Shown here one piece after another: positions 14,382 to 24,716 of a DNA stretch of 52,692 nucleotides. Location: the NCBI GenBank assembly GCA_003159795.1, contig PLPK01000048.1, positions 1 through 52,692 of the forward strand, written 5' to 3'. Both the position numbers and the translations under genes were made by a program. Within the stretch, counting starts at the first letter, position 1. Every line of letters starts with the position of its first letter. The notes beneath the pieces are model-generated. The model did not search any database. It saw only the letters and a list, made by a program, of their open reading frames with translations, and had not been told where the DNA came from. The stretch is from Acidimicrobiaceae bacterium (GTDB taxonomy: Bacteria > Actinomycetota > Acidimicrobiia > Acidimicrobiales > Bog-793).

Positions 14382-16040
14382 TCAGGCGTTCGGGCCGTAG
14401 ACCTGTCGCCAGTTGGGGACCGAGGGCCTGAAACGCCCCGCCGGACCCCGTCCGAAAAGAGCGAAGAGGTTGCCGGTGATCCGCCGGGTGATCGTGGCCG
14501 GACAGTCGCGCGTGCCTCGCGGACAGGGCGTGAGGGACCCGATCCACGAGGTCGCGCCGCTGTCGAAGATCCCGGCACGGCTTGTCGGGTCGGTCCAGTA
14601 GGTCATGTCGGAGTAAATGAACCCCTGCGAGGCACCCGTCTCGCTCACCGCGTCCGAGAGGCTGACCGGCGAGTGGGCGAGTATCTCGAGGTCGGCGGGA
14701 TGGTCCCCGGGGTCGAACTCGTCGAGGTCGCCGGTGACGATCCCCGGCACCTGCGAGCCGCGGCGGAGCCCGGTGCCGCGGAAGATCCACGGGGAGGCGT
14801 CGCGCGCGACGACGAGTCGCCCGGGCCTCGCGCCCGGCAGCAGGTAGCCGACGTACTGCTCGCCGACGAATCCGATCTCCGGCCAGTTGGCCGGCGGCGA
14901 GCTCCAGGTGTTCTCGGTCACCTCGAGTGGGTCGCCCTTGTTGTAGAGGGGGTCCTCCGCCGGGTCGCGGTAGTCGACTTCCTCGCGGTCGGCTCCCAGG
15001 GGAGAGGCCTGGAGCCGCACGTGGCGGAGAATGGCGCTCGCCCCGAAGAAGATCATGTTGACGCCGTGGGCCTCGGCCCGGTCCGCCGCTCGGCGCTCGG
15101 TGAGCGACCAGCATTCGTCGTGGCCGAGGGACAGCATCGCCCGATGCTCTCCCAGCAGGGCGGGATGCTGCTCGACGGTGACATCCGTGACGTAGGTGAC
15201 GTCGAGGCCCTCCTGCTCGACGAAGCGGATGAGCGGGTACTCGCTGCCGAGGAAGTCACCGGCCCCGTCGCCGTAGTCGTAGGGGCGGTCGAACGAGACG
15301 ACCCGGGCGCGGTTGCACGGCGGATACCCGCCGGCCGGACAGGTGCCCTCGCCGCCGTAGAAGTCGTAGCCCCCGTACTGGTTCCAGGCCTGCCAGGTGT
15401 AGACGTCGTTCTTCACGACGTAGGCGGCCGTGCTGGTCGGGTCCCAGACGGTCAGCGGGACGTAGCTTGCCTGTCCGCCGCTCCCGACGAGCTTGAGCAG
15501 GTAGTCACCCTGGACAAAGGCGCGGGTGACTGTGAAGTCGAGTGTCGGGGTCCAGTTGTCGCAGGCGACCATGTTCGTCACCGTCGTCCGCGGGCAGGGC
15601 GGCTGTTGACGCCCGGCGACCTCGGGCGACCGCCAGACGAGGCGGCCACCCCTTCCCTGGTAGTAGCCCATCCGGTAGGCGTCGACGTGCAGCCGCGACG
15701 CGGTCGTGGTCACGTAGAGCGTGACGTGGTCGCCGTGCGCCGCATACGTCGTGGAGGCGAACCCCGCGATCGACCCCGGTGTGCCCGGGCGGATCTCCCA
15801 GTCCCGGGTCCCGGGTCGCTTGTTCTCCTCGATCACCCAGCGCGTCTGCATCCCGTCCCGGCCAGGGGACGTCGTCGGATGGTGGCCCGCTCCCAGAGTT
15901 GGCTTGTGCCGGCCGTTCCGTGGCGCGGCCGCGTCCCGGCTCCTCGTCGCCGTGGCGCTGGACCCGGGCGTGGCGAATGCCAGCCCGGCGGTGACGGTGA
16001 CGGCGACGGCGATGTAGGTGACACGACGCTTCGAGATCAC
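14382..16040 (-). CDS. Secreted dimethylformamidase-like protein
   Basis: The mature part of this 552-residue protein resembles the large (beta) subunit C-terminal region of N,N-dimethylformamidase, with LSLGHDECWSLTERRAADRA and VNMIFFGASAILRHVRLQ as the core. The GTG at 16040, with GGAAGGATT before it, gives an N-terminus VISKRRVTYIAVAVTVTAG that is a signal peptide, so the enzyme is exported; the track start 164 codons earlier is spurious. Several Cys pairs (GGEGTCPAGGYPPCNRAR; TPCPRGTRDCPA) fit an extracytoplasmic protein with disulfides. Such proteins are widespread in actinobacteria with unproven activity, so the substrate need not be dimethylformamide. It is divergently transcribed from the cyclic-di-GMP gene. 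Confidence 0.75.
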   Translation of the reverse strand: MISKRRVTYIAVAVTVTAGLAFATPGSSATATRSRDAAAPRNGRHKPTLGAGHHPTTSPGRDGMQTRWVIEENKRPGTRDWEIRPGTPGSIAGFASTTYAAHGDHVTLYVTTTASRLHVDAYRMGYYQGRGGRLVWRSPEVAGRQQPPCPRTTVTNMVACDNWTPTLDFTVTRAFVQGDYLLKLVGSGGQASYVPLTVWDPTSTAAYVVKNDVYTWQAWNQYGGYDFYGGEGTCPAGGYPPCNRARVVSFDRPYDYGDGAGDFLGSEYPLIRFVEQEGLDVTYVTDVTVEQHPALLGEHRAMLSLGHDECWSLTERRAADRAEAHGVNMIFFGASAILRHVRLQASPLGADREEVDYRDPAEDPLYNKGDPLEVTENTWSSPPANWPEIGFVGEQYVGYLLPGARPGRLVVARDASPWIFRGTGLRRGSQVPGIVTGDLDEFDPGDHPADLEILAHSPVSLSDAVSETGASQGFIYSDMTYWTDPTSRAGIFDSGATSWIGSLTPCPRGTRDCPATITRRITGNLFALFGRGPAGRFRPSVPNWRQVYGPNA

Positions 16041-16550
16041 ATTGCCAATCCTTCCCGGTCCACGAAAATTCCCCGCCGGCGGGGGGGACCTGCGAGGAGC
16101 CGGACCAGGCCCCCGTGGGAGGCGGGGTTGATCCCGGCGCGCCGGGCGGAATGGTGGCACCAGGTCATGACATCTCCCCGCATCGGGCACTCGCGTGGGT
16201 GGAGGGTCCCCATATGACGGGAACGACTGTATGTCGCCGGGGTCCGGGCCCGGCGTCGCTGGCCAGCCCGTCCGTCGTCGCCCCAGCCCGTCGCTCGCCC
16301 GTTCGATCGATCCCACGGGCTCAGGCGATCGACGCGTGTTGACGGCATTCAACCTCGGGTTCCGCACCGTGACGGGGCCATGGCGCATGATCACGCCACG
16401 GTGGGGCCCTTGGTAAGATCTACAAACTAGTCTGATTTTCTCGCTGGCAATCCTGAGGTTTGTCGCGAGTTCGGCGGGATATGGGGCCAGCTCGAGGCCC
16501 TCGCACAGTCGGGAATTCAAGCCACCGCACATTGTTCCGTGAGGATCTCG
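16041..16550. other. Divergent promoter region with imperfect dyad
   Basis: No gene is supported in these 510 bases between the secreted protein and the PAS-GGDEF-EAL gene. At 16375-16409 an imperfect inverted repeat pairs GGGCC and TGGCG with CGCCA and GGCCC around an eight-base loop. A less GC-rich stretch after it (about 16410-16450) is the best promoter candidate for the rightward gene. I found no cyclic-di-GMP riboswitch fold. Confidence 0.35.
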
Positions 16551-18311
16551 ATGGCAAAACGGCCGAAGTCGAATCCCGGGGGCCTGGGTTCAAAGCTTTC
16601 ACCCGGCGAGATCGAGCGCCTCTGCATGCGCAACCTGCTCGACCTGCCAGGCGAGCGCATCTTTTTCAAGGATCTCGAGAGCCGTTTCCTCGTCGTCAGC
16701 CGGGGACTGCTCGAGGACCAGCTGCCGGGATGGTCGTCGGCGGACGTCATCGGCAAGACCGACTTCGACATCTTCAGCGAGCCGCACGCCGTCGCCGCCT
16801 TCGAGGACGAGCAGCGGATCATCCGGACCGGTGAGCCGATCGTCGGCAAGATCGAGCGGGAGACCTTCCGCAACCGCCCCGACGTCTGGGTGTCGACGAC
16901 GAAGTTCCCGTTGCGGGACGACGAGGGGCGGATCATCGGCAGCTTCGGCATCTCGCGGGACGTCACCGCCCAGATGGTGGCGGAGCAGGCCCTCACCTAC
17001 CAGTCGCTCCACGATACGGTGACGGGCCTCGTCAACCGCGTCGCGCTGCGGGACCGGCTCTCCCAGTCCCTCGCGCTGCTCGAGCGCCAGCCCGGGCAGG
17101 TCGCGCTGCTGTTCATCGACCTCGACAACTTCAAGACGATCAACGACTCGTTCGGCCACGAGACGGGCGACAAGGTGCTCGTCGAGGTGGCACGGCGCCT
17201 GACGAGCGTGGCGCGGCGCGCCGACACCGTCGCCCGCCTCGGCGGCGACGAGTTCGTCATGCTCTGCACGGCGCTGCGCGCCGACGACGACCCGCGCCTG
17301 CTCGGCGAGCGGGTCGTGCGCACCGTCGCCAAGCCCTTCATCGAGGGCGGGCTCGACCTGTCGATCACGGCGAGCGTCGGGATCGTCCTCACCGACGACC
17401 CGATCGCCGACCCGGGCCAGCTCTTCCAGGACGCCGACATCGCGATGTACCGCGCCAAGGACACCGGCAAGAACTGCTTCCAGATCTTCTCGCCTTCGCA
17501 GCGGGCCCGGGCCGTCGCCAGCCACGTCCTCGAGCGGGAACTGCGGGAGGCCCTCGACGCTTCCCAGCTCTTCCTCCTCTACCAACCGCTCTTCTCGATC
17601 GAGGACCGCAGCCTGCGTGGCGTGGAGGCCCTCGTGCGCTGGAACCACCCCACCCGGGGGATCGTGCTGCCGCTCGAGTTCATTTCGCTCGCCGAGGAGC
17701 GCGGCCTCATTACCCGGATCGACAGCTACGTCCTCGACGAGGCCTGTCGCCAGCTCAGCGTCTGGCTTCGAGAGGGGGGCTGGTCGAGCGAGTTCACGGT
17801 GGCGGTGAACATCTCCGGGCGCCAGCTCGTCGACCCGGGCTTCGCGGCCTATGTCGCGAAGACCCTCGCGCTGCACGGGCTCGAGCCCTCCCGGCTCTGC
17901 CTCGAGATCACCGAGACGACCCTCAACGGCGAGGCCGGCGACGTCGAGACGACGCTGGCGGCGCTCTCCGGACAGGGCGTCCGCCTCGCCATCGACGACT
18001 ACGGGACTGGCTACTCGACGCTCGCCCACCTCCACCGGTTGCGGGTTGACATCTTGAAGATCGACCGCAGCTTCATCGAGCAGATCGGCCGCACCGAACG
18101 TGACTCCGAGATCATCGCTGCCGTCACGGCGATGTCCCACGCGCTGGGCATGTCGGTCGTCGGCGAGGGGATCGCGACGAGCGAGCAGCTCGACGAGCTC
18201 GCCTCGCTCGACTGCGACCAAGTCCAGGGCTTCCTCTTCGCCCACCCGCTCCCGGCCGAGGGCATCGCCGAGTTCCGGCGCGGCGCGACACCGCGACCCG
18301 CTTCCCCCTAG
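16551..18311 (+). CDS. PAS-GGDEF-EAL cyclic-di-GMP protein
   Basis: This 586-residue cytoplasmic protein has a PAS domain (about 25-140, containing LPGERIFFKDLESRFL and GISRDVTAQ), a GGDEF diguanylate-cyclase domain (about 155-315) and an EAL phosphodiesterase domain (about 330-575). Both active sites look intact: RLGGDEFVML in the cyclase, and EALVRW, NISGRQL, TETTLNG, DDYGTGYSTL and KIDRSFI in the phosphodiesterase. Either direction of turnover, or both, is possible. No membrane helix is seen, so the PAS domain probably senses a cytoplasmic or diffusible signal. I chose ATG 16551, which has GTGAGGA before it; the track's GTG at 16539 adds only four residues. Confidence 0.93.
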   Translation: MAKRPKSNPGGLGSKLSPGEIERLCMRNLLDLPGERIFFKDLESRFLVVSRGLLEDQLPGWSSADVIGKTDFDIFSEPHAVAAFEDEQRIIRTGEPIVGKIERETFRNRPDVWVSTTKFPLRDDEGRIIGSFGISRDVTAQMVAEQALTYQSLHDTVTGLVNRVALRDRLSQSLALLERQPGQVALLFIDLDNFKTINDSFGHETGDKVLVEVARRLTSVARRADTVARLGGDEFVMLCTALRADDDPRLLGERVVRTVAKPFIEGGLDLSITASVGIVLTDDPIADPGQLFQDADIAMYRAKDTGKNCFQIFSPSQRARAVASHVLERELREALDASQLFLLYQPLFSIEDRSLRGVEALVRWNHPTRGIVLPLEFISLAEERGLITRIDSYVLDEACRQLSVWLREGGWSSEFTVAVNISGRQLVDPGFAAYVAKTLALHGLEPSRLCLEITETTLNGEAGDVETTLAALSGQGVRLAIDDYGTGYSTLAHLHRLRVDILKIDRSFIEQIGRTERDSEIIAAVTAMSHALGMSVVGEGIATSEQLDELASLDCDQVQGFLFAHPLPAEGIAEFRRGATPRPASP

Positions 18312-20259: not shown

Positions 20260-22671
20260 GTGAGGCCCGTGCAGAGGCCGCCCCAAGACGCCACCGCCCG
20301 CGTCGGGAAGACCCCGTCGCCGGCGCCCGCCGGCGCCGGCCGGCCGTTTGCACCTGAGGCGCTGCCGGGACCGGACATCAGGCCGCTGCCCGAGACGCTG
20401 CGCTACCGGCTGAAGAACGCCCTCCTCGGGCCGCCACTGGCGACGGAGCGCCAGACGACCGAGAGGTTGGGCAAGGTGGCCGGCCTCGGAGTCCTCGCAC
20501 CGGACATGATCTCGTCCTCCGCCTACGGCACGGAGGAGATGCTCACCCAGCTCGTGCCGTTCTTCGGCGTCGCGGCGTTCGCGCTCCTCATCCCGGTGAC
20601 GCTCGTCATCCTCGGGATCCTGCTCTTCGTCACGCTGTCGTACCTGGAGGTGATCAAGGCCTACACGAAGGCGGGCGGCTCGTACGTCGTCGCGCGGGAC
20701 AACTTCGGCCCACGCACCGCCCAGGTGGCGGCGGTCGCGCTGCTTATCGACTACACGGTTACCGTCGCCGTGCAGTGCACGGCGGGTACGGACTCGCTCA
20801 CCTCCCTCGTGCCGAGGCTCGTCCCCTACACGGTGCCCATCACAGTCGCCGTGATCGTGATCCTCTGCTACGGGAACCTGCGCGGGATCCGGGAGGGGGC
20901 CAAGGTATTCGCGCTGCCGACCTACCTGTTCATCCTCGGGCTGGGCTCGGTCGTCGTCGTGGGTCTCGTGCGCGAGGCGATCGGCGACGCCCCGGCCCAG
21001 ATCTCGCGCCATTCCGGCATGCTCCCCTTCGGGGCGCACAGCGGGCTGATCGCCTTCGCCGCGATCACGGTGATCCTGCGCGGCGTCGCCAACGGGGGAT
21101 CGTCGCTCACCGGCCTCGAGGCCATCTCGAACTCGGTGGGGGCGTTCCGACGGCCCGAGGCGCGCAACGGCCGGATCACCCTCGTGATCATGAGCTGTGT
21201 GCTCGGCTTCCTGGTCCTCGGGGTGACCTTGCTCGCCCACTGGTCGCACGCCTCGCCCTACGCGGCGGGTTCCCCCACGGTCGTTGCCCAGGTGGCGGGG
21301 TGGGTGTGCGGGGCGCAGGGGGTGGGTCTCGCGCTGAAGGACCTCGTCGTGATCGCGACGATGCTGATCCTGTTCACCGGCGGCAACACGAGCTTCAACG
21401 GCTTCCCATACCTGGCGAGCTTCGTCGCCGCCGACTCGTTCCTGCCGCGGCAGCTGACGAGGCGGGGGCACCGGCTGGCGTTCTCCAACGGCATCATCGT
21501 GCTCGCCGTCGTCGGGGTCGCCCTGGTGGTGGGGACGCACGCCAGCCTCACGAGCCTCGTCGCGCTCTACGCGATCGGCGTGTTCACGGGCTTCACGATG
21601 GCCGGGGCCGGGATGGTGAAACACCACCGCACCCATCATGAGCCGGGCTGGAAGTACCGCCAGGTGATCAACGGCTTCGCCGCCGTGCTTTCGGCGGTCG
21701 TCGTGCTCATCTTCGCCGTGTTCAAGTTCACCGAGGGCGCCTGGCTCGTCGTCGTGCTCGGGCCGGTGCTCTACTTCCTGCTGCTGCGGCTCCACCGCCA
21801 GTACACGACCGAGTCCAAGGAGCTGGAGGAGGGGGCGGAGCAGGCCTGCGAGGCGCCGGTGCTCCGGCGCCACGTCGTGCTCGTCTTCGTCGACCGGCTC
21901 GACCTCGCCGCCGCCCGGGCGGTGCAGTACGCGCGCACGCTCAACCCGGACGAGTTGCGGGCGGTGCACTTCGCGGTCGACCCGCGTGAGGCCGCCAAGC
22001 TCGAGACCGAGTGGAGCCGGCTGGGGCTCTCGCGGCTGCCGCTCGACATTTTCGACTGCCCGGACCGGCGCCTGTCGCGTGCCGCCCTGGAGCTCGCCGC
22101 CCAGATCCTCGCCCAGGACGACACCGAGCTGTCGATCGTCATGCCCCGGCGCGCCTTCGCGACGGCCTGGCAACGGATCCTTCACGACCGCTCGGCCGAC
22201 CGGATCGCCGAGGCGGTCTCCCAGCTGCCCCACGCCAACGCGACGATCGTCCCCTTCCAGCTCTCCAGCGCCCGCGTGCAGACCCGGGCGCGGGCGCTCC
22301 TCGAGCGCACGGCGACCCGCCACTCGCGGCCTGCCGCGCCCGCGACCGACGAGCTGACCCCGAGGGTCTCCGGCACGACGCCGATCGGCGAGGCGCGCTG
22401 GCGCGCCCGGGTCCGCGTCGCCGGGCGGATCCACTCGGTGCGCGTGCCCGCCGGTGGGGCGACGGCCAACCTCGAGTGCACGCTCGTCGACCCGTCCGGG
22501 GCGATCCTCCTCGTCTTCCAGGGCCGCCGGCACATCCCCGGGGTCCAGCAGGGCGCCCGGCTTGTCGCCCGCGGGATGGTCGGCGCGTGGCAGGGCCAGC
22601 TCGCGATCCTCAACCCCATGTACGAGCTCGTCGCGGGGCCGGAGGGGGCCGGGGCCGAGACCCCGGGCTGA
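20260..22671 (+). CDS. KimA-like APC permease fused to OB fold
   Basis: This 803-residue protein has an APC-superfamily permease core of about 12 helices (about 65-500) with the KimA-type motif APDMISSSAYGTEEMLTQLV, then a cytoplasmic Usp-like domain (about 545-690; VLVFVDRLDLAAARAVQYAR). It ends in a compact beta-rich domain (about 705-790; WRARVRVAGRIHSVRV, GAILLVFQGRRHIPGV) that reads as an OB fold. KimA proteins import K+ with protons and are inhibited by cyclic di-AMP. In Streptomyces-type genomes the permease, two TrkA proteins and a separate small OB-fold protein are neighbours; here the OB fold appears joined to the permease. The start is GTG 20260, or GTG three codons later. Potassium as substrate is inferred from family and neighbours. 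Confidence 0.8.
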   Translation: MRPVQRPPQDATARVGKTPSPAPAGAGRPFAPEALPGPDIRPLPETLRYRLKNALLGPPLATERQTTERLGKVAGLGVLAPDMISSSAYGTEEMLTQLVPFFGVAAFALLIPVTLVILGILLFVTLSYLEVIKAYTKAGGSYVVARDNFGPRTAQVAAVALLIDYTVTVAVQCTAGTDSLTSLVPRLVPYTVPITVAVIVILCYGNLRGIREGAKVFALPTYLFILGLGSVVVVGLVREAIGDAPAQISRHSGMLPFGAHSGLIAFAAITVILRGVANGGSSLTGLEAISNSVGAFRRPEARNGRITLVIMSCVLGFLVLGVTLLAHWSHASPYAAGSPTVVAQVAGWVCGAQGVGLALKDLVVIATMLILFTGGNTSFNGFPYLASFVAADSFLPRQLTRRGHRLAFSNGIIVLAVVGVALVVGTHASLTSLVALYAIGVFTGFTMAGAGMVKHHRTHHEPGWKYRQVINGFAAVLSAVVVLIFAVFKFTEGAWLVVVLGPVLYFLLLRLHRQYTTESKELEEGAEQACEAPVLRRHVVLVFVDRLDLAAARAVQYARTLNPDELRAVHFAVDPREAAKLETEWSRLGLSRLPLDIFDCPDRRLSRAALELAAQILAQDDTELSIVMPRRAFATAWQRILHDRSADRIAEAVSQLPHANATIVPFQLSSARVQTRARALLERTATRHSRPAAPATDELTPRVSGTTPIGEARWRARVRVAGRIHSVRVPAGGATANLECTLVDPSGAILLVFQGRRHIPGVQQGARLVARGMVGAWQGQLAILNPMYELVAGPEGAGAETPG

Positions 22672-22739
22672 GCGCGCCCCGGGCCCGGCCGCCGGCGCGA
22701 TCGCGTCAGGGGTTGTCCCGGTCGCCCGGCCGGTGTTGC

Positions 22740-23438
22740 ATGGTGGTCGTGCACATCATCGTCGTCGGCTGTGGGAGGGTCGGGGCCGAGCTCTCGATCC
22801 GCCTCACCGACCGGGGCCACTCCGTCTCCGTCATGGACCGCGTGCCGCGGGCGTTCCACCGGCTCCCGGAGGACTGGCCGGGCGAGATGATCATCGGCTC
22901 CGGGTTCAGCCTCGAGGACCTCGACGCGGCGGGGGCGTCCAAGGCCGGCGGGCTCGTCGCTGTGACGAACGGGGACAACACGAACATCCTCACCGCCCGC
23001 ATCGCCCGAGAGCACTACGGCATCGTGAACGTCGTCGCGCGCATCTACGACCCGCGTCGCGCCATCATCTACCAACGGCTGGGGATACCGACCGTGGCCA
23101 CTGTCACCTGGACGGTCGAGCACGTGCTGCAGCGTCTCGCGCCCGACATGGAGGAGTGCGCGTGGACGGACCCGTCGGGGCGCCTCGTGCTCGTCGAGCG
23201 CGTCCTCCCCGAGTCGTGGGCCGGCAGGCCGCTGCGCGACCTGCTGATCGGGAAACGGGCGAAGCTCGCGGCGGTGATCCGCGCCGGCGAGCCGCGGCTC
23301 GACACCGAGGGGCTCGTCGGTCAGGAGGGCGACGTGCTGCACCTCGTCGCGCTGAGGGGCGCGGTTGCCGAGCTCGAGAGCCTCCTCGGGGCGCCGGAGC
23401 CGCCGCCGGTCGCCGAGGACGGGAAGGACCGGCCATGA
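22740..23438 (+). CDS. TrkA-type K+ uptake regulator (first copy)
   Basis: This 232-residue peripheral protein has an N-terminal RCK/TrkA-N Rossmann domain (HIIVVGCGRVGAELSIRL, about 5-22, and an acidic MDRVPRAF segment for NAD binding) and a C-terminal TrkA-C-like domain (about 145-215; GRPLRDLLIGKRAKLAAVIR). Such proteins bind nucleotides or cyclic di-AMP and gate K+ transporters. The ATG at 22740 is 68 bases after the permease stop and has no strong Shine-Dalgarno; GTG codons at 22743 and 22749 are alternatives. Its stop overlaps the next start (ATGA), so the pair are translationally coupled. No TrkH/KtrB channel is in the window, so the fused KimA-like permease is the likely partner. Confidence 0.9.
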   Translation: MVVVHIIVVGCGRVGAELSIRLTDRGHSVSVMDRVPRAFHRLPEDWPGEMIIGSGFSLEDLDAAGASKAGGLVAVTNGDNTNILTARIAREHYGIVNVVARIYDPRRAIIYQRLGIPTVATVTWTVEHVLQRLAPDMEECAWTDPSGRLVLVERVLPESWAGRPLRDLLIGKRAKLAAVIRAGEPRLDTEGLVGQEGDVLHLVALRGAVAELESLLGAPEPPPVAEDGKDRP

Positions 23439-24097
23439 AGGTCGCGATCGCGGGTGCGGGGACGGTCGGCCGGGCGATCGCCCGGGACCTCCGCACGAAC
23501 GGCCACGAGATCCTGCTCATCGAAAAGAACCGCGAGGTCATCGCGCTCTTGCAGCCGACCCTCGATGTCACCTGGGTCGAGGCCGACGCCTGCGAGATGA
23601 GCTCGCTCGACGCCGCCGGCATGGCGGAGGTCGACGTCGCCGTCGCCGTCACGGGCGACGACGAGGACAACCTTGTGATCTCGCTGCTCGCCAAGCAGGA
23701 GTTCGCCGTGCCCCGCGTCATCGCCCGCGTGAACGCCCCGGAGAACCAGTGGCTCTTCAACGACTCGTGGGGTGTCGACGTGGCGGTCTCGACGCCGGCG
23801 CTGCTCACCTCGCTCGTCGAGGAGGCCGTCTCGGTCGGCTCGCTCGTGCCGCTGCTCGAGCTCGGCGACGGCGGCACCCATCTTGTCGAGGTGACGCTCG
23901 CCCCCGGCTCGCCGGTGGCGGGGATGGCGCTCGCCAACCTCGACCTCCCGCGGGATGCGGCGGTCGTGGCGGTGATGCGCAAGAGCCATGTCGTGCCGCC
24001 GCGGGCCGAGACGGTGCTCGCCGCCGGCGACGAGATCCTGCTGCTGGCGACCAAGGACGTGGAGGACGCCGTCTACCAGCTGCTCGTCGGCCCGTAG
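23435..24097 (+). CDS. TrkA-type K+ uptake regulator (second copy)
   Basis: This 220-residue RCK-family protein is coupled to the first copy by a four-base overlap. The Rossmann loop MKVAIAGAGTVGRAIARDL is at the very start, followed by LLIEKNREVIALL with the acidic ribose-binding residue and VTGDDEDNLVISLLAKQ. The C-terminal TrkA-C domain covers about 135-218 (VEVTLAPGSPVAGMALANLDLP). Two different RCK subunits made from adjacent genes suggest a heteromeric ring. The start has GGGAAGGA upstream. The product is normal length for a single-repeat TrkA. Confidence 0.92.
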   Translation: MKVAIAGAGTVGRAIARDLRTNGHEILLIEKNREVIALLQPTLDVTWVEADACEMSSLDAAGMAEVDVAVAVTGDDEDNLVISLLAKQEFAVPRVIARVNAPENQWLFNDSWGVDVAVSTPALLTSLVEEAVSVGSLVPLLELGDGGTHLVEVTLAPGSPVAGMALANLDLPRDAAVVAVMRKSHVVPPRAETVLAAGDEILLLATKDVEDAVYQLLVGP

Positions 24098-24287
24098 CGG
24101 AGCCCAGGTGCCGGCCGGTGCGACGGGGGCCACGGCCCCGGTCCGCGGCCACGGGTCCCCGGTCAACGGGTGACCGCCGGAGGGTGCCCCGCGACGGTCC
24201 GGTCGGCGTCGTAGCGTGTCGAGAGGACAGGACTTCATGCCGGTCCAGGCCGCATCGGCCGCTGCCGGCGGAGAGATCGGGAGCGTG

Positions 24288-24716
24288 ATGAGACCCACAA
24301 TGCGGTTGCTTGCGGCTTCGACCCTGACGGCGGTCCTCGTCACGGGCGGGGTGCTCGCCACGGCCGGCGCGGCCGTCGCGCCGGTGGCCCGTGCCACGGT
24401 CATCGTGCGGGCCCCGGTGGCGTCGGTGACGGCCCGCGTCGGCGACGACGTCCGGGTCGAGCTCACCGCGTGCTCGGCGAGCTGCGGCTACACGTGGCGG
24501 GTGTCGGCCGGGCCGCGGGCCGCCGTCGCCAAGTACGTGTCGACCACCTATCGCCAGTCCCCCGGTTCGAAGGGCCTCGTCGGCGGGAACCAGATCGAGA
24601 GCGTCAAGTTCCTCGTCGTCGGCAAGGGGTCGACGTCGATCGTGTTCCGGTACTTCCCGCCGGGCAAGGACCGCAAGCCGACGCAGCGGTACCGGTTGAC
24701 GTTGCGGGTCGCGTAG
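24288..24716 (+). CDS. Secreted chagasin-like (I42) protease inhibitor
   Basis: This 142-residue protein has a signal peptide from MRPTMRLLAASTLTAVLVTG to AGAAVA and a mature domain of about 110 residues. Loops expected in the chagasin/I42 family are present in order: SCGYTWRV (for NPTTGYxW), GLVGGNQIESVKFLV (for the GxGG..F loop) and VFRYFPPGK (for the RPW loop, here weakened). Family members inhibit papain-like cysteine proteases. ATG 24288 is chosen because GGAGAG precedes it and the signal peptide starts there; the track's earlier start adds 24 residues before it. The family motifs are partial, so function is tentative. Confidence 0.65.
   Translation: MRPTMRLLAASTLTAVLVTGGVLATAGAAVAPVARATVIVRAPVASVTARVGDDVRVELTACSASCGYTWRVSAGPRAAVAKYVSTTYRQSPGSKGLVGGNQIESVKFLVVGKGSTSIVFRYFPPGKDRKPTQRYRLTLRVA

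Follow-up and report, generated by a model that had tools for sequence, protein, structure and literature searches.

A conserved fusion identifies the OB protein encoded at actinobacterial TrkA loci as part of a KimA-type potassium uptake system

A permease–OB fusion precedes two trkA genes

The stretch of DNA analysed here (the window) is the 52,692-nucleotide contig PLPK01000048.1 of an Acidimicrobiaceae bacterium. Its forward strand carries three co-directional genes between positions 20260 and 24097: a KimA-type permease with a C-terminal OB domain (20260..22671) and, 68 bases behind it, trkA1 (22740..23438) and trkA2 (23435..24097), which overlap by ATGA. The fusion is real and conserved, and it places the OB proteins found at TrkA loci of Actinomycetota within a K+ uptake system of the KimA type. 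A preliminary description had read the locus as a KimA-like permease of 803 residues, with a beta-rich end resembling an OB fold, followed by two TrkA-type genes. It had also pointed to Streptomyces-type loci, in which the OB fold is encoded by a gene of its own close to a permease gene and two trkA genes.

The permease open reading frame (GTG start, no internal stops) encodes 803 amino acids. The KimA structure 6s3k aligns to residues 49–647 (E=1.1e-91), which bears out the KimA-like identity, and Pfam places AA_permease_2 at residues 83–487 (E=7e-30). The AlphaFold2 model, built on 41 sequences, has the KimA fold (Foldseek hit 8b71, TM 0.89 by target length). From the model and residue mapping, the transmembrane domain spans residues 47–530 (20398..21849), and a cytosolic alpha/beta domain as in KimA occupies residues 537–687 (21868..22320). 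A linker that varies in length among relatives (residues 688–704; 22321..22371), modelled with low confidence at residues 688–699, leads into a distinct six-strand barrel at residues 717–792. The window permease shares both its APC-fold membrane domain and its cytosolic domain with KimA of Bacillus subtilis, a member of the KUP family (6s3k, 8b70, 8b71), and by sequence its identity as a KimA/KUP-type transporter is well supported. The start codon is uncertain. No clear ribosome site was found upstream of the GTG at 20260, and the first 41 residues are disordered in the model and without conservation, so translation may in fact begin further downstream.

Profile and predicted structure place the OB-fold domain at residues 705–792 (22372..22635). 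PF01336 matches residues 718–789 when the whole protein is searched (E=1.8e-4). Searched alone, the window tail scores 26.2 bits, just below the cut-off of 27, and each of the 43 aligned tail sequences is a match at E<=0.01, the best at E=3e-9. AlphaFold2 predicts six strands for the isolated tail (core pLDDT 97–98), and the nearest solved folds in a structure search contain OB domains (Lys/Asp-tRNA synthetases, RPA, SSB and CST). Invariant residues run through the 43 members, which are 30–60% identical to the window. In window numbering the OB signature comprises R715, G722, D744, G755-R756-R757, G761, G765 and N785-P786; G755-R756 of the triplet and all the other positions are common to fused and separate OB members. 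An OB barrel is supported as the predicted fold of the tail, and the OB reading of the beta-rich end therefore stands: the domain search and structure prediction proposed as its checks both returned an OB match. The tail could also have been a standard part of every KimA homologue. This was rejected, since it is absent from B. subtilis KimA (607 amino acids), from Chloroflexota/Nitrospirota homologues and from actinobacterial permeases that have a separate OB gene.

Both downstream genes encode RCK proteins, as first described. TrkA_N, with its Rossmann GxGxxG motif, is strong in trkA1 (GCGRVG; 3.5e-20) and in trkA2 (GAGTVG; 3.7e-27). TrkA_C is strong in trkA2 only (7.3e-17), the match in trkA1 being weak and below the cut-off.

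The fusion is the rule in a large clade

The window protein is matched in 54 of 60 relatives, and none of the six that lack the permease gives an OB match (0/6). Together with a scan of named genomes and fetched neighbourhoods, the 60 relatives gave 161 permease records, 155 after removal of duplicates. An in-frame OB fusion is present in 79 of these; a separate OB gene lies shortly behind the permease on the same strand in 7 and elsewhere in the locus in 41, 25 have no OB and 3 are cut by contig ends. The fused permeases form essentially one clade of Acidimicrobiia, Nanopelagicales and some Streptomycetaceae, with the fusion eroded in mycobacteria. Among them are Candidatus Planktophila lacus (a complete genome), Streptomyces sp. 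ICBB 8177, Kitasatospora sp. GAS204B, metagenome-assembled genomes (MAGs) of Acidimicrobiaceae and several Mycobacterium. The fusion is the rule in this clade and not peculiar to the window. A chance fusion is excluded because 79 distinct related permeases are fused in frame, and a frameshift or assembly artefact because the fusion recurs in many independent assemblies, one of them a complete genome. A first sample of the phylum had suggested that the fusion is limited to the window's order, a restriction dismissed once the scan found the cases in Nanopelagicales and Streptomycetaceae. Weak profile matches in frames of 716–792 amino acids were rejected as extra fusions, the six tested all being RecG.

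A maximum-likelihood tree of the permeases (KimA root, quick search, SH-aLRT support only, some basal forks weak) places Nitrospirota/Chloroflexota homologues without OB early, followed by permeases with a separate OB gene, those with an abutting OB gene and then one large fused clade. The fused or unfused state changes at least four times on this tree, with later losses inside the fused clade in one Streptomyces branch and in mycobacterial tandem copies. Read in a different frame, the OB gene of two relatives from different families (L032 and L033) begins within the permease's 3′ end, with an ATG start and a Shine-Dalgarno sequence before it (GAGGAG and AAGGAG). Such abutting and overlapping genes in basal relatives indicate that permease and OB genes were tightly coupled before or at fusion, and the tree favours an order of events from separate through adjacent to fused. 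In a Candidatus Aquidulcis MAG (L121) a KimA-like permease adjoins two TrkA-type genes with no OB match; judged from this case, the permease–TrkA association may predate the OB part. Two Mycobacterium loci (L110 and L095) hold tandem arrays of two or three KimA-type permeases; only the last permease of the L110 array carries an OB tail, which is eroded.

Separate OB genes are linked to permease and trkA genes

Linkage was assessed for 34 separate OB genes from 20 families of Actinomycetota, a sample of hand-picked strong matches and not a random one. A permease and/or the trkA pair lies within about 4 kb of the OB gene in all 34: trkA genes are near 33, the exception (L170) having an abutting permease, and a permease is near 33. 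By sequence, the closest OB relative found is the OB/wedge region of RecG, which the tail profile matches at E of about 1e-6 to 1e-12. It differs in belonging to a helicase, and neither permease nor trkA lies nearby in any of six such weaker matches used as controls. These neighbourhoods confirm the Streptomyces-type locus across Actinomycetota; in Streptomyces itself, synteny of an OB gene with trkA had been noted earlier (PMC13118837). Separate-OB loci (Streptomyces; the mycobacterial Rv2690c, ceoB, ceoC, Rv2694c type) have the same four modules as the window, with the OB signature and two TrkA types. They differ from it in having an OB gene of their own, a permease about 34–38% identical, divergent permease and trkA genes, and a retained pocket for cyclic di-AMP (c-di-AMP). 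Permease and OB distances are correlated (r=0.67; equalled in none of 500 permutations), as expected for joint descent, a correlation that is alone insufficient to demonstrate interaction.

Elsewhere the trkA genes are upstream of and divergent from the permease in 74 of the 79 loci with trkA1 nearby. The co-directional order in the window looks like a lineage-specific rearrangement, and its permease, trkA1 and trkA2 possibly form one transcription unit. No promoter was recognised at the window locus, nor was ydaO or another known riboswitch found there. Just downstream of trkA2 lies a gene whose small, apparently secreted product carries a peptidase inhibitor domain of the chagasin family (24216–24716, +; PF09394, E=3e-11). 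On the other side are a 716-amino-acid open reading frame with a C-terminal domain like the beta-subunit of N,N-dimethylformamidase (14382–16532, −; PF20254, E=5e-98) and a gene for a PAS-GGDEF-EAL protein of cyclic di-GMP turnover (16539–18311, +), upstream of an MFS transporter and the permease.

Searched genomes with the fusion lack TrkH

At 2.08 Mb and 95% completeness, the window genome encodes a single permease of this type and a single OB domain of this family, together with two TrkA_N proteins above cut-off and KdpA; a search for a second, separate OB gene in it found none. The TrkH/KtrB pore subunit of a Trk/Ktr channel is lacking from the system, TrkH (PF02386) being absent from the window genome and from nine other genomes with a fused permease. 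The complete genome of Planktophila lacus has one fused permease, one trkA1–trkA2 pair about 0.5 Mb away with no permease or OB alongside, and no TrkH. Since these genomes offer the TrkA pair no Trk channel, gene content points to the KimA-type permease as its natural partner. S. venezuelae is likewise described as having KimA-like permeases and lacking TrkH (PMC10117811). Published extracts on the actinobacterial TrkA pair (CeoB/CeoC of M. tuberculosis) describe it as a K+ uptake system and name no membrane partner. A precedent for a paired regulator is TM1088A/TM1088B of Thermotoga maritima, two different proteins of one locus that form one TrkA-type octameric gating ring. They are the cytosolic part of a putative Trk transporter (PMC4380455), whereas the window system has no TrkH and an extra OB part.

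The K+ site is kept and the c-di-AMP pocket is remodelled

The residues that handle K+ and protons in KimA (PMC6994465) show about 99% conservation in the fused permeases and in the separate-OB ones alike. KimA D36, Y43, D117, T121, T230, E233 and Y377 are all conserved in the window permease, where they map to D82, Y89, D164, T168, T284, E287 and Y437; this set without D164 comprises the K+ ligands and the proton-coupling glutamate. S125 of KimA, which is Gln in the window permease and most fused ones, is the sole important KimA residue not present in the window. By analogy with KimA, the fused permease probably transports K+.

KimA is inhibited by c-di-AMP through a pocket (PMC10284832) that is altered in the fused clade. 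Separate-OB permeases are 66% identical to KimA in the pocket versus 24% in the remaining cytosolic domain; that domain contains eight of the pocket positions, whose observed identity was reached by random sets in 0.5% of draws. The corresponding values for the fused clade are 27% and 22%. Typical changes there are V457 to Glu, A481 to Asp/Glu, V506 to Phe, F568 to Arg, N580 to Asp and Q581 to Arg, with R337 and H579 mostly retained. The remodelled pocket residues of the window permease are D545, F571, R631, D643 and R644 in the cytosolic domain and E518 just upstream of it. The pocket that the window permease lacks is a trait of KimA; E. coli Kup is without it, hence it does not define the KUP family. 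General divergence does not explain the loss, as the two groups are similarly close to KimA outside the pocket. Two loci (L115 and L117) have a changed pocket and an OB gene that is still separate, so the pocket change preceded the fusion.

A diadenylate cyclase (DAC) domain was not found in the window genome (95% complete) or in 19 of 34 other members of its family, and in eight of the nine genera represented by two or more members the result was uniform across the genus. Apparently the family has lost c-di-AMP synthesis more than once. As the cause of pocket loss this is unsupported, because DAC-positive genomes have the same changed pocket. Judged from these residues, c-di-AMP probably does not inhibit the fused permeases as it inhibits KimA; the clade-wide loss of the pocket goes beyond what the preliminary description had seen.

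A proposed regulatory role for the OB domain

That the OB protein, the TrkA proteins and the permease belong to one system is well supported. On balance, we favour a Trk-like K+ uptake system in which two TrkA-type RCK proteins would control a KimA/KUP-type K+/H+ symporter from the cytosolic side. The OB domain, in most Actinomycetota a protein of its own and here joined to the permease through a flexible linker, would be a third, regulatory or adaptor subunit. From the fusion, the linkage and published mutations we infer that these parts form a complex. Least certain is the adaptor role: we hypothesize that the OB domain docks the TrkA1/TrkA2 assembly onto the cytosolic domain of the permease, whereby the nucleotide state of TrkA would control K+ uptake. 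A more tentative evolutionary scenario, conceivable but rather doubtful, is that this branch gave up inhibition by c-di-AMP and incorporated the OB regulator in the permease, the TrkA ring acting through the fused OB domain so that RCK proteins would gate a KUP symporter and not a channel.

Published genetics agree with a regulatory OB subunit. Under rifampicin, M. smegmatis acquired 11 mutations in the OB gene MSMEI_2699 versus 1 without the drug, and 4 versus 0 in trkB (PMC10433840); annotation, locus-tag spacing and the gene order of Mycobacterium L178 argue for placing MSMEI_2699 in this OB family. In M. tuberculosis, transposon insertions in ceoB (TrkA) and in Rv2690 (permease) lead to a common phenotype (PMC12216072). 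The fused tails of mycobacteria belong to permeases that have no trkA genes close by, and these tails have lost R715 and the GRR motif, which suggests that the signature serves partnership with TrkA; one such fused permease (L101) and a complete separate system (L178) share a genome. Several points weigh against a regulatory OB subunit. One Streptomyces branch lost the OB domain yet retains the permease, and about half of the fused permeases are without trkA genes nearby, so that some permeases of the clade can do without OB. A search of the literature yielded no experiment on the fused protein and no direct study of an OB member, and no paper in the open-access literature searched joins KimA with this OB protein or describes the fusion.

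Of the other roles for the domain, a ligand sensor (for a nucleotide or other small molecule) that replaces lost c-di-AMP control is unlikely but the least so. The drift of the fused-clade pocket to near background while separate-OB permeases keep theirs would fit it, as would the lack of a DAC gene in the window genome and over half its family. Separate-OB systems, however, combine the OB protein with an intact pocket, which indicates that the OB family arose beside c-di-AMP control and not as its substitute, and the pocket change predates the fusion. It is less probable still that the domain binds RNA or DNA, tethering nucleic acid to the transporter and linking K+ uptake with translation or gene expression. 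Both PF01336 and the closest solved folds represent OB domains that bind nucleic acid, RecG is the closest sequence relative found, and the domain has conserved Arg residues; against this, many OB folds bind proteins, and fusion to a membrane protein together with RCK linkage favours a role in transport.

The permease itself might carry an amino acid or another solute instead of K+, its Pfam family being generically one of amino acid permeases. Retention of about 99% of the K+/proton residues in the 79 fused permeases, linkage to TrkA and the absence of TrkH from the genome make this very improbable. Even harder to sustain is a tail that is a passive passenger without transport function: its loss or erosion in Streptomyces and Mycobacterium branches would accord with that, but it has residues that are invariant across 43 members, the separate OB genes are linked in 34 of 34 loci, and the M. 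smegmatis gene is a mutation hot spot (PMC10433840).

Discussion

Taken with the linkage across the phylum and the minimal genomes, the fusion points to a KimA-type permease as the membrane partner of the actinobacterial TrkA pair, and to an OB protein annotated only as nucleic-acid binding as a subunit of the system. The OB gene is a hot spot of rifampicin-selected mutation in M. smegmatis, and the fusion makes its role directly testable. The fused branch, having lost its c-di-AMP pocket, offers a natural experiment in how the control of K+ uptake can change.

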